This document shows, in pieces, positions 6,557-29,980 of a stretch of DNA of 31,100 bases. The position numbers and the translations under genes are program-made. The DNA is taken from the NCBI GenBank assembly GCA_001600495.1, contig BCKE01000069.1:1-31100 (forward strand), written 5' to 3'. The notes beneath the pieces are model-generated. The model was not told the DNA's origin and made no database searches. It saw only the letters and a list, made by a program, of their open reading frames with translations. The number at the start of each line of letters is the position of its first letter. The first letter of the stretch is position 1. The stretch comes from Pilasporangium apinafurcum (taxonomy: Eukaryota > Oomycota > Peronosporomycetes > Pythiales > Pythiaceae).

Positions 6557-7007
6557 TGCGCTTTGTGCATTCCAAGATACACCCCACAACCATTCAGCAT
6601 CATAGAGATCTATTTATACGCGGCCTGGCAATATGTGATTCCAGAGAACTTGCCATGGAGCAGCAGGTATAGGTTCATACGATAGGAGATAGTAAATAGG
6701 ATAGACCATCATCGATTGCCCATATCAACAGCGTCATCGGCTAATGATAACATCTCTTTAGAGAGAGAAATTTTTTTGTGAATCAGTATTCAACTGCTGC
6801 TGAGACAGCCATCGCACACAAACGCGCAACGATCGGCCGCCGATGCGGCTGCTACGTACACGCATCCACAACAACAGGACGTGCAAAAGACGGGAACGAG
6901 AAATGTCACATCAGCAGACGTTCGATGATTCTTTGACACCAACTTCAGAAAGTGTGCTAACGAGCAGTGTGGGATTCGCAACTACTCCTCATCCTTTTGA
7001 TATCTGA
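6481..7007 (+). other. Probable 3' coding continuation of the bZIP gene (frame unresolved)
   Basis: From 6481 a frame shifted relative to the simplest exon 3 reads through the stop at 6554 and encodes a protein-like stretch including GFRVVMRFVHSKIHPTTI and LAICDSRELAMEQQ up to a donor-like GTATAG at 6667. Beyond a possible acceptor near 6808 a Gln/Ala/Thr-rich frame ends at TGA 6926. A third frame ends at TGA 7005. Such C-terminal regions after a bZIP are common in oomycete bZIP proteins, to my recollection. The join to exon 2 needs a shifted splice site (for example GTGTGC at 6401) or an indel. The last possible stop lies only 17 bp before the Fanzor element. Confidence 0.4.
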
Positions 7008-7020
7008 CCCAAAATCATCT

Positions 7021-7024
7021 CTAA
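7021..7024. repeat. Target-site duplication CTAA of Fanzor element copy 1
   Basis: CTAA directly abuts the CCTTTATT end of the element. The same four bases abut the other end at 8925-8928. In element orientation this is TTAG. Confidence 0.8.
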
Positions 7025-7079
7025 CCTTTATTCCCCATGTGTTCTGTACCGCGTGGTACAGAATACGTGGGGATAAAGG
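7025..7079. repeat. Terminal palindrome of Fanzor element copy 1
   Basis: A 55-bp inverted repeat with arms CCTTTATTCCCC...TTCTGTACC and GGTACAGAA...GGGGATAAAGG around a short GC-rich centre. It has one unpaired T and a short mismatched section. It can form a hairpin in DNA or RNA and lies at the 3' terminus of the element. Confidence 0.85.
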
Positions 7080-7127
7080 CTACACTCATCCGTTTCCGGA
7101 ATCATAGCAATAAGGCCGTTTATCACC
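7025..7127 (-). ncRNA. Candidate Fanzor guide-RNA (omega-RNA/fRNA) scaffold, copy 1
   Basis: The 103 nt between the Fanzor stop and the element boundary. It contains a 28-nt block (7081-7108) identical to copy 2. Within it TCCG-GAAA-CGGA forms a 4-bp stem with a GNRA-type tetraloop (7089-7100). A 55-nt near-perfect palindrome (7025-7079) ends exactly at the element end. In TnpB and Fanzor systems the guide scaffold lies at this place and the guide is the DNA just outside the element. The RNA is predicted, not shown. Confidence 0.5.
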
Positions 7128-8557
7128 TCAGTTTTTGATTTCGAGTACCAATTCATTCTTTTTCCTCGTGAACGCCTCGAGTCTCCTCTTTTTCTTCACT
7201 TGGTCGATGAAGAGTCTCAAAATGTTTATTGCGGCGTTGATGTCACGGTCCCACAATGTGCGATGGCATTCACTATTTTTGCAGTGTTGCACACCATAAA
7301 GACCGGCACTGACAACTTTTCCGTCAAGGACGAATCCCTTCATCCTCTTGTGACAAGCACAACACAGCTTGCTCGTCCTGAACTCGTTCACATCAACAGC
7401 ACGACACCTGGAACCGATTTTCTTCCGTAAGGTCATTATGAGAACATTAATGTTGCCTTTAGCTGAGCTTGTGAAACTTGCATCTCCATACGCGATAACG
7501 GTTCATTTATTACCACCTGTAAGGTTCTTGACTACTTTCTCGTACGTCTGTTGTCGACGAATATAGGTCGACCATGGTAGCCTCTTCATCCTCCTTGATG
7601 AATGCACGTCAAGAAGACGATCCAAATACACGAGACAAAATCTCACCCGTTCCAAATAGGAGACAAGGTTTGCAACTTTTGTCGAAGGAACATTTTCATC
7701 GAAGGTTTTGATGTCAGGCTCAGCATTAATCCACTCTTTGGTCAACTTTGTTCGTCTATGGTAGCCGCACTCTCTGTAGCAACGGTCGTTAGACCAGTGG
7801 ATGACTTCATGTTTCACGTTCTCTCCTTTCGATTTTTGCAGCGTAGCCATGCTTTCCTCTTTGTAGACAACAGCAGTGAAGATCTTCTTTCTTCCCGGGT
7901 CCAAACCGATGATCTGGTCTTCAAGAGAAAATGCCTTTTTTTCTCTCTCGCGGGAAGCTTTGGACGGGAGATTGGCACACCAACTGACATACTATCGATC
8001 GAGATGAAGTACTCAAACTCCTTTCGCTGGACTTTGGTCACAAGACCTATATTGAAGTATGTGCGCCATAACTCAGCTTTGTCGGCGTAAAGCTCAACAG
8101 GGTCATTCAAAGCCTTAGCAAGTTCCTTCAGAACGGTGATATTGATATTGATGAAAATGGGTCTGAACTGTTTCTGTGGAAGCAGAGATCAGACTCGGCA
8201 ACCCTTCATTCCATCATCCACGTGAGCTTGTATGTCTATCAGCATTGTGCGGAGAAAGGGCATGTGACGTTCCGGTGATTTGTTCAAGTCAAATGGCAGC
8301 GGTCCGATCTCGTTTCTCACTCTATCCGATAATTCTTGCATCCAAACAATCTCCTCAGTAGGGATGGGATACTTCTTGAACCTGGAGTACGCGGGGATCA
8401 GGTTGGATAAGCTATGCTGAGTTTGGATGCTTGCACGGACCAGCAGTGAAACAGCACTCTTGATTATCTTGTCTTGGTGCTTTTCAAAATAGTCACTGTC
8501 NCGAACGAGAGTTGCAAGCATAGTGCGAGAAGGTAAGTTCCAGAAGCGCAGATTTGG
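7128..8557 (-). pseudogene. Fanzor (TnpB-like RNA-guided nuclease), interrupted
   Basis: The minus strand encodes about 475 codons of a Fanzor1-type protein. Visible features in order: an N-terminal FWNLPSRTMLATLV segment (no ATG before it; TGA at 8560-8558), a central ITVLKELAKALNDPVELYAD region, RuvC-I as GLDPGRKKIFTAVV with its Asp, an AYGDASF segment where TnpB has its RuvC-II Glu, then VNEFRTSKLC with the alternative Glu and first zinc pair, HCKNSEC as the second pair, and RuvC-III WDRDINAAINI. TnpB and Fanzor proteins cut DNA at sites specified by a guide RNA made from their own 3' end. Three lesions break the frame: TGA at 8191-8189, TGA at 7505-7503 (just after RuvC-I region ends at GGNK), and a one-base loss in an A run (plus-strand T7, 7936-7942) between ISRPKLPARE and the GLDPG motif. 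Both stops could derive from CGA by one transition. Because the assembly has N here, a collapsed multi-copy consensus is an alternative to true decay. Confidence 0.85.
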
Positions 8558-8924
8558 TCAGAACANTATTAACGGTTCAAAAAACGATAGAGACCTCTGG
8601 ACCATCAAGTTAAGCTGGTAGAAGGAATGCTTAGCAATAAGAATACATAGCTGTTTACAAATGGATAATCAGTAGGTAGTCAGAAACAGAAACACGATCA
8701 CTTTCCAATTGCCCACCTACCTTACAATCCCCACACGTCAATATCGTCAGAACTATTTGTCGCCCTGCAGAAAATGAAATAGTAGAAGAATCCTCAGAAT
8801 CTACTCTTTTATGCCAAGTGGAGTGCTCGTTGCTAAATCCAGTAGAAACAAACTTACACTGTAAAAGAGGATGTACTTCATATACTACAACTCTACTTCC
8901 ACCAGTACACTTGGGGAAAAAAGG

Positions 8925-8928
8925 CTAA
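8925..8928. repeat. Target-site duplication CTAA (second half), copy 1
   Basis: CTAA follows the GGGGAAAAAAGG end of the element, matching 7021-7024 exactly. Confidence 0.8.
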
Positions 8929-18962: not shown

Positions 18963-20354
18963 ATGGTCGCATCTGTCTCCTTCCTTCGTACTTTTGGCCT
19001 CAGCGCAGCCTGTGTGGTTGCCTCTGTCCATGCCACTTGGCTCCGAGGTCTGGAAGCTACCGTGAGTGATGACCTCACTTCGTACCCGAACTGGTTCATC
19101 GCGGCTGAGGCTTCGGACTACAACAACGGCATCGTCGCCAACTTCCTCGCCAATGTCAGTAACACCCGTGCTGAGGGTGAAGCTTATGCGACGTTTGACT
19201 GGGATAACACGTGCGTTTTTGGTGATATCTCGTACACATCGGTTTTCTACCAAGTCGACAATCTCAACTTCCGCCTCACGCCAGAGCAATTTGAATCCCA
19301 CTTTGCATTGGGCTACAACACGTCCAGCAGTGACAAGTGCTTGCCAGAGGGGCTCAATACTGTGCTCGCTAACGATGTGAATGGCAGCGGTATCACTTTC
19401 GCGGATGTCTTGAACTCCACTGCGCAAGACTACAAGGTACTCTACAACGCGTACATTGGCCCCACATACAACCTCACGTCAGGAAATGCCTCGCTGACAC
19501 TCGAGGAGATCAAGGAAACGACTGAATACAACAACTTTGCCGCAAAATTTGGCTTTATGACCAACGGCGTGGTGTCAGTTGCCCCCGATGCATTCTTGGA
19601 TTGCGCTATGCGACTCGCGCTGACCGTGCGTCCACAGACGCTCGTCGGCATGACGGAGCAAGACATTAACGAGATGATGACAGGCAGTCTCCGATGGAAT
19701 CTGAACGCCAAGATCGACACACCTTCATACACATCAACGGGTGATTTGCAAGTTAAGGGCTCTTACCAAACTGGCCTCCGTGTGTTTAACGGCCAGGAGA
19801 CAACTATGCGTGCGCTCCGCGCCGCTGGCGTTGAAGTCTACATCGTCAGTGCCTCTCCTGTGCCAATTGTGCAAGTAGTGGCGCAATTGACCGGCTTGAC
19901 CTATGCTGTGCCCGACTCAAACATCTACGCCATGCGTTTCACTTGGGATGAGGAAAACAAGTTCGCCGGACAGTTGGTTGATGGATACCCAATTGTGTGG
20001 GGTCCAGGAAAGGCGACAGTCATCGAAGAGTACTTGGTACCACTGCACAACAACCAACCCCCTGTTTATGCCAGTGGCGATTCAGATGGCGATTGTGCTA
20101 TGCTTGAAACCGTACGCGATGGAATTGTACACGTTAACAACCGCCTCCATACGACGTGCATTCAAGAGTTTTATGAATTGGCATGCACGTACTTCAACAC
20201 TACTGACCCATCAACCAACAACCACTACCTGCTCCAGGGCCAGGACAAGATCATTGGCTCGTGGATTCCATCGGGTTACACCACGACCAATGGCACGGTT
20301 TACACCGCCGGTACCGCCGAAGCCTGCGCGGAATTAAAGTTTTTGAGCGTGTAA
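18963..20354 (+). CDS. Secreted HAD-superfamily phosphatase, phosphorylcholine-phosphatase-like (paralogue 1)
   Basis: A 463-residue single-exon protein with a signal peptide (residues 1-~24, MVASVSFLRTFGLSAACVVA). HAD motifs: I is FDWDNT with nucleophile Asp79 and Asp81, II is VSAS with Ser296, III is Lys350 in GPGKAT, and IV is SGDSDGD with Asp373/375/377. The long insertion between motifs I and II and the DxDNT form resemble bacterial secreted phosphorylcholine phosphatases. That substrate is an inference from the family, and other phosphomonoesters are possible. Several N-x-S/T sequons and an even distribution of cysteines suit an extracellular enzyme. A paralogue lies in reverse orientation at 24962-26419. 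Confidence 0.85.
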   Translation: MVASVSFLRTFGLSAACVVASVHATWLRGLEATVSDDLTSYPNWFIAAEASDYNNGIVANFLANVSNTRAEGEAYATFDWDNTCVFGDISYTSVFYQVDNLNFRLTPEQFESHFALGYNTSSSDKCLPEGLNTVLANDVNGSGITFADVLNSTAQDYKVLYNAYIGPTYNLTSGNASLTLEEIKETTEYNNFAAKFGFMTNGVVSVAPDAFLDCAMRLALTVRPQTLVGMTEQDINEMMTGSLRWNLNAKIDTPSYTSTGDLQVKGSYQTGLRVFNGQETTMRALRAAGVEVYIVSASPVPIVQVVAQLTGLTYAVPDSNIYAMRFTWDEENKFAGQLVDGYPIVWGPGKATVIEEYLVPLHNNQPPVYASGDSDGDCAMLETVRDGIVHVNNRLHTTCIQEFYELACTYFNTTDPSTNNHYLLQGQDKIIGSWIPSGYTTTNGTVYTAGTAEACAELKFLSV

Positions 20355-24961: not shown

Positions 24962-26419
24962 TCATAGGAACTTGTATGATGTACAAGTATCGGTAGCACC
25001 CGCGGCGTACGTCACACCATCAGATGTAGTGAATCCCGAAGGAATCCACGAGCCAATGACCCTATCCTGGCCCTGCAAAAGGTACTTGTTATTGGTCGAC
25101 GGCTCAGTAGTACCGAAATATGTGCAGGATTTGTCATAAAACCCATGAATGCACGCGCTAGAGCTTTTGAGGCGATTGTTGACGTGGACAATACCATCAC
25201 GAACAGTATCGAGGAAGTCGCAATCACCGTCCGAGTCACCACTAGCATAGATAGGATACTGATTGTTGTACAGTGGCTTAAGGTATTCTTCGACTATCGT
25301 TGCTTTACCAGGTCCCCATGTGATGGGATAGTCTTCGATGAGCTTGCCAGTGAATTTGGCATCGTCATCAAATGTGAAGCGGACAGCATAGATGTTCGAG
25401 GATGGAACCCAGTACGTCAAACCAAGAAGTGATCCAACGACATCAACAAACACCTGAGGCGATGCACTGATGATGTAGACATCCACTCCAGCCGCACGAA
25501 GCGCTCGCATCGTTGTTTCTTGGCCGTTGAACACGCGCAAACCAGCGGTATACTCTCCTTCAACCTCCAAATCACCGGTTGATGTGTATGACAGTGTGTC
25601 CAACTTAGCGTTCAAGTTCCATCGCAGACTACTAGTGATCATCGTCTTGATTTCTGCTTCGGTCATGCCCACCAGCATTTGTGGGAAAATCGACATCGCA
25701 ATGTGCATCGCACACTCGGAGCGTTCATCTGGACTCACACCTTCCAAACCAAAAGTTAGAAATGATATTTTAGCCCGAAAGTTGAGGTATTCAGTTGTTT
25801 TCTTGATCTCTTCAAGTGTAGCACTGGCATTTCCGGAGGTGAGACCATATGTGGGGCCAATATATGCATCATATAGCACCCTGTAGTCTGCGGCGGTAGA
25901 TTCTAGAGCATGAGCGAGCGTCACACCATTGCCATTCACATCGGAGCCCAGAACGGTGTTGGTACCATTTGGTAAGCACGCATCACCGTTAGCTTCGGTG
26001 TATCCCAGCGCAAAGATCGTTTCAAAATCGTCTGGCGAGAAGCGGAAATCAAGATTATCAACTTGATAAAAGACTGATGTGTACGAGATATCGCCGTAGA
26101 TGCAGGTGTTGTCAAAGTCAAAGGTGGCATACGCTTCGCCTTTGTCACGAATGTTGGAAACATTTGCCAGTAACTCGGTCACAACGCCGTTGTTGTAGTC
26201 CGGTGCTTCAGCCGCGATAAATCCGTACGAGTTTCTTGTCGAAGGCGAAGGCGTTGGGGCTGGCGTCGTTGTCGAAGGTGTCTTGGTTTCATCGGCATCT
26301 GGACAAGTCTTGTTGGTTGGGGCGGGTGTAGCGGCTTCCAGACCACGCAGTGTAGTACCAGACGCCGAGGCAATAATGCAGGCAGCAGTAAATCCAACGG
26401 CGCGGAGTACAGACACCAT
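24962..26419 (-). CDS. Secreted HAD-superfamily phosphatase, phosphorylcholine-phosphatase-like (paralogue 2)
   Basis: A 485-residue single-exon protein, clearly homologous along its length to the product of 18963-20354 (shared FNGQETTMRALRAAGV, GPGKAT, SGDSDGD). Signal peptide at residues 1-~21. Motif I is FDFDNT with Asp101 and Asp103. It differs mainly by a Thr/Pro-rich insertion at residues ~31-62 (PAPTNKT...TTTPAPTPSPS), which looks like an O-glycosylated linker or stalk and contains one extra cysteine. All four HAD motifs are intact, so it should be active. It ends 188 bp from the convergent GT8 gene. Confidence 0.87.
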   Translation of the reverse strand: MVSVLRAVGFTAACIIASASGTTLRGLEAATPAPTNKTCPDADETKTPSTTTPAPTPSPSTRNSYGFIAAEAPDYNNGVVTELLANVSNIRDKGEAYATFDFDNTCIYGDISYTSVFYQVDNLDFRFSPDDFETIFALGYTEANGDACLPNGTNTVLGSDVNGNGVTLAHALESTAADYRVLYDAYIGPTYGLTSGNASATLEEIKKTTEYLNFRAKISFLTFGLEGVSPDERSECAMHIAMSIFPQMLVGMTEAEIKTMITSSLRWNLNAKLDTLSYTSTGDLEVEGEYTAGLRVFNGQETTMRALRAAGVDVYIISASPQVFVDVVGSLLGLTYWVPSSNIYAVRFTFDDDAKFTGKLIEDYPITWGPGKATIVEEYLKPLYNNQYPIYASGDSDGDCDFLDTVRDGIVHVNNRLKSSSACIHGFYDKSCTYFGTTEPSTNNKYLLQGQDRVIGSWIPSGFTTSDGVTYAAGATDTCTSYKFL

Positions 26420-29102: not shown

Positions 29103-29106
29103 TTAA
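29103..29106. repeat. Target-site duplication TTAA, copy 2 (left)
   Basis: TTAA directly abuts the CCTTTATTCC end; the same tetranucleotide is at 29793-29796. Confidence 0.8.
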
Positions 29107-29157
29107 CCTTTATTCCTCACTTGTACAACGCGTTGTACAAATGATGTGGGAATAAAG
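29107..29157. repeat. Left terminal palindrome of Fanzor element copy 2
   Basis: CTTTATTCC...TTGTACAACGCGTTGTACAA...GGAATAAAG: a 20-bp perfect central palindrome inside a longer inverted repeat. It resembles the 3'-end palindromes of both copies, although it sits at the 5' end. Confidence 0.8.
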
Positions 29158-29488
29158 ATTTAAACTAAGATTACCTTGAGAATGGAGTTTAGGATTCATT
29201 GAATGGAGAGACTCCTTGGTGGCTCTTGCTGTGTGTGCAATCATCTTGAAAGGCCATGTTGACGATCAATCGCGTTTTCAGAAAAATGAAATTATACACC
29301 TTGGATGGGAAAAAAGGTTGATATATGGANTTAGAAAAATCAAGTATACACTACAAGGTATTTCTCAGGAGTTTGAGAGTTTCTCATTTCGGTGGCGTCT
29401 CTTGAATGAATTGTTTCCAGCTTCTCAATAGCGAAACATATTGAATTGAAGTATTTANCACCTCACGCCCATCTATTGAGTGTCGCTT

Positions 29489-29687
29489 CAACGAAGAAAT
29501 TGGNGGTAAGGATCTTTATGGTGTGNGACACTGCAAAAATAGTGAATGCCATCGCACATTGTGGGACCATGACATCAGCACCGCAATAAACATTTTTAGA
29601 CTCTTCATCGACCAAGTGAAGAAAAAGAGGAGACTCGAGGCGTTCACGAGGAAAGAGAATGAATTGGTACTCGAAATCAAAAACTGA
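29489..29687 (+). pseudogene. Fanzor C-terminal remnant
   Basis: From about 29489 the plus strand aligns with the end of the copy 1 nuclease: the second zinc pair (HCKNSEC), the RuvC-III region, and the lysine-rich tail ending EIKN and TGA (29685-29687). The RuvC-III motif reads WDHDISTAINI where copy 1 has WDRDINAAINI; the Asp is kept but the Arg and Asn are lost. RuvC-I, the alternative Glu and the first zinc pair are deleted, so no nuclease can be made. Confidence 0.85.
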
Positions 29688-29792
29688 GGTAATAAAAGTC
29701 CTCACTGCTATGATTCCGGAAACGGATGAGTGTAACTATTTTCTTCACGTGTTTTGTGCCACGCGTGGTACAAAACCCGTGGGGAATAAAGG
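29688..29792 (+). ncRNA. Candidate Fanzor guide-RNA scaffold, copy 2
   Basis: This 105-nt segment matches 7025-7127 of copy 1. A 28-nt block (29707-29734) is identical and includes the TCCG-GAAA-CGGA hairpin (29715-29726). The terminal palindrome (about 29736-29792) keeps its pairing by base changes on both arms. Its retention in an otherwise gutted copy suggests the end is needed in trans, as RNA or as transposase substrate. Confidence 0.5.
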
Positions 29793-29796
29793 TTAA
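29793..29796. repeat. Target-site duplication TTAA, copy 2 (right)
   Basis: TTAA directly follows GGAATAAAGG, matching 29103-29106. Confidence 0.8.
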
Positions 29797-29810
29797 GAGC
29801 AGACAACCAC

Positions 29811-29980
29811 AGAGTAGGCATATTCGACACCTGGACTCGAGGAGTCCAGACGAGTAGGTGCGCATTTTTGAGAAAGATGTTTCTTGTGCGATCTTTTCCT
29901 TCCTTTCGTACCGATATTGTTACATTACACTTTCTAGACAATCGCTTTGACTTATTCATCAGATAGATCTCCTCGGGCAT
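29811..29980 (-). other. Start of a repeated reading frame (left copy)
   Basis: The minus strand begins ATG at 29980 with MPEEIYLMNKSKRLSRKC. The same beginning (MPEEI...KSRLSRL) occurs on the plus strand at 30978, so this is a duplicated sequence. The frame runs toward the Fanzor element, which may have inserted in it. I do not recognise the protein, and it may be transposon-derived or dead. Confidence 0.3.

Follow-up and report, generated by a model that had tools for sequence, protein, structure and literature searches.

The right end of a probable Mariner-type Fanzor1 transposon and its predicted omega RNA scaffold in Pilasporangium apinafurcum

Described Fanzor1 systems and the present element

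In Pythium ultimum, Fanzor1 genes are described within Mariner elements having TA ends, and some of these elements carry a Fanzor only (PMC3627910). Hairpin ends described there include those of Helitrons or IS200/605. For the Fanzors studied in PMC10432273, the omega RNAs are described as encoded between the stop codon and the edge of the element. The omega RNA of SpuFz1 is given there as the right-end repeat along with a guide of 14-15 nt, and Spizellomyces is described as having ghost copies and a right-end omega RNA whose guide is derived from the flank. The omega RNA of GtFz1 overlaps the open reading frame (ORF) by 17 aa (PMC10432273).

Here we analyzed a Fanzor1 repeat family of the oomycete Pilasporangium apinafurcum, two decayed members of which (copy 1 and copy 2) lie in one window, that is, the whole stretch of 31,100 nucleotides taken from contig BCKE01000069.1. 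The element is a Fanzor1 transposon, probably of the Mariner type, and its right end likely encodes an omega RNA scaffold. By description it is like PUl-1 to PUl-6 of Pythium ultimum, which share with it an oomycete host, a Fanzor1, the Mariner type (probable for the present element) and TA target duplications, PUl-4 having Fanzor1 only; the main text of PMC3627910 nowhere uses the word "palindrome". The SpuFz1 locus, as described in PMC10432273, is alike in its Fanzor ORF, in a scaffold running from the stop codon to the right end, in a guide from the host flank and in its many copies devoid of the ORF; it differs in having 30-nt inverted repeats and a CATA motif, whereas the present element has palindromic ends of about 55-64 nt at TTA(A). 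The target-adjacent motif (TAM) given for GtFz1 of Guillardia theta, TTAAN, is similar to the TTA(A) at which the present element is inserted, and its omega RNA likewise overlaps the end of the ORF, the overlap being a predicted one in our case; a point of difference is that four stem-loops (SL1 and three more) are described for the omega RNA of GtFz1 (PMC10432273, PMC11423790).

Palindromic Fanzor ends were the topic of no title among the Fanzor-literature matches listed, and a literature search joining quasipalindrome, template switch and transposon gave no match. The element and its predicted omega RNA are of a known kind, and a self-renewing palindrome is the part that could be new.

The identity of the protein was analyzed by means of a profile built from 12 Fanzor relatives, which matched SpuFz1 (E 5.7e-29), GtFz1 (2.8e-24) and PpFz1 (2.9e-13), the longest match being that to GtFz1 (positions 7-595 of 612). 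Against the solved structures these three Fanzor1 proteins (8gkh, 9cer and 9cf0) were the sole matches of this profile at E ≤0.001. Together with the PF07282 match in copy 1, this gives a RuvC/TNB likeness to Fanzor1 nucleases at the C terminus. No unmasked open stretch in the copies examined exceeds the 404 codons of the copy L071; this stop-free stretch has 39 homologues at E ≤0.001, one of them with 70% identity, and as a single fragment it gave no match to the solved structures with phmmer. The sense strand of L071 (2.4 kb) has only three frames (404, 88 and 193 aa), which together look like a single decayed Fanzor, and on the other strand no frame reaches 72 aa. The Fanzor is the only gene recognised in the element.

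TA adjoins both ends in 17/17 copies having both ends, the search patterns themselves requiring TA (with mismatches tolerated at the left end). The transposase domains matched in the genome were PF03184 (11 matches), PF13843 (3) and PF13358, DDE_3 (59). When transposase genes were compared by eye with the element ends listed, none of those compared was inside an element, and no transposase having the same ends as the Fanzor1 element was identified among the matches listed. The element is probably moved in trans by a transposase of the host.

Copies, size classes and anatomy of the right end

The core motif gave 195 matches in the 36.5 Mb genome (at most 2 mismatches) and the reversed-pattern control gave 0; the interior motif of the left end gave 107. 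About 195 right ends provide an unusual chance for following the evolution of a Fanzor guide-RNA end. In 21 copies the distance from left end to core falls into size classes of 2.32-2.42, 1.37-1.52, 1.06-1.13 and 0.55-0.61 kb, and a second family of left ends, to which copy 1 belongs, is found at about 1.8 kb. In the 0.6 kb class most of the Fanzor ORF is gone, and the last ~200 nt are kept along with the right end.

Copy 1 occupies 7022-8927 on the minus strand, including TA at each end, as given by the boundary search and the sequence; its left end (family 2) was placed at 8913-8927 on the same strand by the boundary search. It retains a C-terminal Fanzor1 fragment of 102 aa at 7128-7436 (minus strand), a Cas12f1-like TNB match (PF07282, E 3.3e-08), with its stop codon TGA at 7128-7130 (minus strand). 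Copy 2 (29104-29795, plus strand) is internally deleted and without most of the Fanzor ORF, its left end lying 611 nt before the core; sequence matching gives the retained end of the ORF as 29491-29687, the stop codon being 29685-29687 (plus strand). Upstream of the stop 124 codons are open in copy 1 and 80 in copy 2, there is no intact ORF in either, and both look like dead relics of the Fanzor system.

In sense order the right end consists of the stop codon inside TGAGGT..ACCTCA, then TCCG-GAAA-CGGA, the palindrome and the host DNA. The conserved unit runs for about 105 nt from the stop codon to the edge and comprises a possible stem-loop containing the stop codon, a GNRA-capped hairpin and the terminal palindrome, which is 61-64 nt long and ends at TA. 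The candidate stem-loop 1 (TGAGGT.../CCTTA in copy 1), which overlaps the stop codon, was located by fold and alignment at 7111-7130 (minus strand) in copy 1 and at 29685-29704 (plus strand) in copy 2. The TCCG-GAAA-CGGA hairpin, located by sequence and fold, is at 7089-7100 (minus) and 29715-29726 (plus), respectively. The palindrome of copy 1, a predicted terminal hairpin adjoining the guide, spans 7022-7082 (minus strand; fold and alignment A1) and that of copy 2 spans 29733-29795 (plus strand). The unit is retained in derivatives lacking most of the ORF, namely L005, L009, L010, L016, L022 and copy 2. An Rfam scan of the window gave no match at gathering scores.

The two window copies had been compared in an earlier note made from the sequence, which placed a predicted guide RNA scaffold here. 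The identical block that it described (TGCTATGATTCCGGAAACGGATGAGTGTA) does hold TCCG-GAAA-CGGA, its length being 29 nt and not 28, and the stem differences quoted between the copies are exact. The palindrome was said to stay paired in spite of these differences. Both copies do fold strongly (z -7.04 for copy 1 and -4.39 for copy 2 against 200 dinucleotide shuffles), with the reservation that pairs 4-29 of copy 1 include three A-C mismatches and a gap.

Altogether 116 distinct right ends were collected; since most of them were found by matching the core motif, apparent conservation of the core is to be expected in this set. The palindromes of type A have the form TA[G/A]CCTTTATTCCCC...ACGCGT...GGGGAATAAAGG[C/T]TA. 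In those of type B (27/116, copy 2 among them) the outer part of the left arm is changed, reading ACTATTTT, ACTAGTTT or something close to these, and the stem is shorter as a result; in 10 of the type B ends the inner hairpin is like the hairpin of the left end. The outer stem is not essential, because type B ends have multiplied, and the want of outer pairing in type B copies counts against the reading as an omega RNA scaffold.

The diversity profile was obtained from 28 copies, with a 351-nt query from copy 1 and the best 40 of 254 candidates scored, a sampling that favours copies resembling copy 1; diversity is 0.08 between stop codon and palindrome and 0.11 within the latter, and over the 26 nt past the edge it reaches 0.71. 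Conservation thus stops at the edge. The most conserved window of 15 nt is formed by the 15 nt before the stop (0.014; 28 copies), and the three codon positions are alike across the final 69-70 codons (0.105, 0.095 and 0.105). An RNA overlapping the end of the ORF would give such high conservation without any difference between codon positions.

On these grounds it is likely that the ~105-nt unit and the last codons of the ORF would be transcribed together as an omega RNA scaffold, in which the terminal palindrome would form the last hairpin. Transcription would continue into the host DNA, whose first 15-20 nt may serve as guide; the guide is predicted past the element edge because conservation stops there, at 7002-7021 (minus strand) for copy 1, where the diversity is 0.71, and at 29796-29815 (plus strand) for copy 2. 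The complex of Fanzor and RNA would then cut the empty site beside the TTA(A) motif, and retention of the element would be favoured.

The same anatomy may be read in terms of the transposase, the palindrome being its binding end only and the block between stop codon and palindrome an internal binding site rather than an RNA. Both ends are indeed palindromic and have the same outer ACCTTTATT repeat adjoining TA. We regard this explanation as rather improbable, since the conservation of the block extends into the end of the ORF, the block sits where the Fanzor omega RNAs described in PMC10432273 lie, and by eye the 66-nt left-end sequences show no such block.

The bases next to TA fit a TTAA target, with T preceding the left TA in 21/21 copies and A following the right TA in 68/86 (Fisher p 0.02). 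This difference is no more than suggestive of a possible stricter requirement on the left side, as from a TAM. After the right TA, A is also enriched at +7 (42/86) and +10 (44/86). Palindromic target sites were considered and rejected, as the inverted similarity of the flanks at positions 2-8 was 34 against a permuted mean of 32.9 (p 0.44, n=17). Flank position 1 pairs in 15/17 copies because of the TTAA preference, and direct repeats of the bases beyond TA were found in 0/17 copies. The host flanks of L036 and L063 have inverted repeats of about 6 nt (GCCTGC/GCAGGC and TATGCT/AGCATA), there being no excess over the 17 copies. In L032, L047 and L092, which lie in different places, the palindrome is absent between AGG repeats and CAGG stands directly before TTA, which looks like recurrent deletion of the hairpin at the same short repeat. 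One further locus, L141 (G000:C44:305508-305573), is a lone 66-bp palindrome with the ends of the family and one mismatched central pair; its flanks (28 and 27 nt examined) are without the interior of the left end, and it is possibly a solo end.

Covariation and its possible causes

Two copies alone cannot show covariation and a test on many copies was therefore needed. Of the 116 distinct right ends, 55 entered alignment A1; the 27 of type B were excluded, as were 34 that were truncated, short, masked, near-duplicate or failing the length filter. Copy 1, L009, L020, L097 and L117, which are 2-3 nt shorter, were added by hand, the symmetric deletions of four of these rows being already known at inclusion, and L103 was removed as a copy of L010. 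The pairing counts used the ends alignable to one reference (63 of type A, 15 of type B), 12/27 of type B falling outside, and the left-end control used the 21 copies whose left end fitted the search pattern.

Over 39 pairs in the 55 right ends, 95.9% of the cells are paired. Cells with both sides changed number 51, against a shuffled mean of 18.7 (sd 3.8) and 3-9 when the partner is slid, and the pairs having such double changes number 15, against a shuffled mean of 6.7 and 3-7 with the partner slid. Since the shuffles ignore the relatedness of copies, more weight falls on the slid control and on the left end. The covariation claimed from the two copies was in this way confirmed across many, and the T.G intermediate between C-G and the T-A of copy 2 is present in L021 and L022. 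By helix, the pairs with double changes are 12 in the palindrome, 2 in stem-loop 1 and 1 in the GNRA stem. Changes in the palindrome centre on pairs 17, 18 and 25, pair 17 occurring as C-G (17), G-C (14), U-A (7) and A-U (1). The GNRA hairpin, which had been offered as structural evidence, shows one double change in 115 copies; it is uninformative on structure because it is nearly invariant, and this part of the earlier proposal fell away.

Covariation in the stem of a transposon end is no proof of an RNA, as a DNA palindrome can produce the same pattern. The left end of the same element is an internal control for this pitfall and could serve likewise in other TnpB and Fanzor families; in the window it is represented by the left-end palindrome of copy 2 (29104-29161, plus strand). 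The left-end palindromes have double changes in 0/420 cells, compared with 46/1,430 at the right end (Fisher p 8e-6, or 0.047 once the three most variable pairs, 17, 18 and 25, are omitted), although shared ancestry of the copies makes the cells non-independent and the left end has fewer copies. This absence speaks for an RNA, or at least right-end-specific, cause.

The competing explanation is that the palindrome is kept as DNA, either through one-step copying from arm to arm during or before transposition or as a dyad to which a dimeric protein binds, the omega RNA merely passing through the palindrome; this is compatible with the reading as an omega RNA scaffold, and we hold it to be a real possibility at somewhat less than even chances. 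Such hairpin-templated copying of one arm would be a quasipalindrome-type correction. Counted from pair 4 inward, 16/61 right ends are perfect palindromes, in 12 versions, and L009, L020, L097 and L117 have symmetric losses of a single pair, both as expected under such maintenance. The comparisons L007-L009, L007-L010 and L007-L016, at about 5% upstream divergence, show 3 symmetric changes and 0 one-sided ones; other close pairs are one-sided only and tell against it, e.g. L017 and copy 1 (6 to 0 at 4.9%). Transversions make up 22/52 cells, or 4/17 kinds, of the double changes, near the 30/170 of one-sided changes, which is again in its favour. Maintenance as DNA should affect the left end as well, given the same outer repeat, and the 0 double changes in 21 copies there stand against it.

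The left end is itself imperfect, with a nearly fixed C.A mismatch (20/21 copies) and a 5-nt bulge in most copies, and when both ends of the same 8 copies were scored, 23/160 left cells were unpaired against 15/208 right cells. The bulge is filled in three left ends, L005, L063 and L142 (the last outside the 21), and in L142 the left end is palindromic except for one mismatched central pair. Either restoration is possible at the left end as well or the filled form is the older state.

Within the right end the three central pairs are unpaired in 51/187 cells against 165/1,617 for pairs 4-29, as in the loop of a hairpin and unlike a continuous dyad, which argues against keeping as DNA; yet the least-paired positions are pairs 17 (23/63) and 25 (20/63) and not the centre.

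Wobble pairs were rejected as proof of an RNA. Among pairs 4-29 the 63 type A ends have 50 G-U and 47 A-C, and in the type A copies that depart from Watson-Crick pairing at just one position the numbers are 5 G-U and 4 A-C; this want of a G-U excess fits maintenance as DNA, and these mismatches are probably mostly decay after insertion, which would be even between G-U and A-C anyway. The outermost variable pair is G-U in 28/63 and A-C in 0/63, and type A changes on the left arm give 41 G-U against 13 A-C. The 15 aligned type B ends have 28 G-U against 4 A-C, an excess that comes mostly from two small lineages (copy 2, L021, L022, L104 and L109; L053 and L056). On its face it favours an RNA, and it is explained as well by the C-rich left arm. 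Counted by copies in the 55 ends, stem-loop 1 has 24 G-U against 7 A-C and the GNRA stem 8 against 4; stem-loop 1 variants present in at least 3 copies are of 4 kinds for G-U and 3 for A-C.

It is also conceivable that there is no maintenance at all, a few old versions of the palindrome having spread by transposition or recombination and then decayed neutrally. The mean number of symmetric changes is flat with divergence (28 copies), which suits this explanation and maintenance as DNA alike, and mixed arms are common (pair 25 is C.C in 12/63 and G.G in 3/63). Perfect versions with private double changes need a paired origin, however, as in L140, which has two, and in L020, which is perfect with one private double change and a symmetric deletion; the excess of double changes over the shuffles, a control ignoring relatedness, points the same way. 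We consider spread followed by decay quite improbable.

A more specific and tentative proposal, which we think unlikely on balance, is that the right-end palindrome would be renewed in each transposition cycle, one arm being rewritten from the other, with new copies perfect regardless of any mutation in the source copy. If true, the transposon end would correct itself and at the same time the guide RNA would be assured of a perfect terminal hairpin.

In the preferred reading as an omega RNA scaffold the omega RNA position is likely, and the covariation may be due to RNA or to DNA. The guide RNA scaffold first proposed for this stretch is retained accordingly in its position and in its covarying terminal stem, and not in the choice of RNA over DNA.

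Other features of the window

Two related genes in opposite orientation, with about 71% DNA likeness, are located at 18963-20354 (plus strand) and 24962-26419 (minus strand). The minus-strand gene has a HAD hydrolase domain, and its protein (24965-26419) has its best named matches, at 57-66% identity, in Phytophthora, Pythium and Globisporangium, in keeping with an oomycete host; the top match overall is at 69%. Outside the Fanzor element a 96-bp inverted repeat is present at 29966-30061/30897-30992, its arms 77% complementary and 835 nt apart, and it possibly belongs to another transposon.
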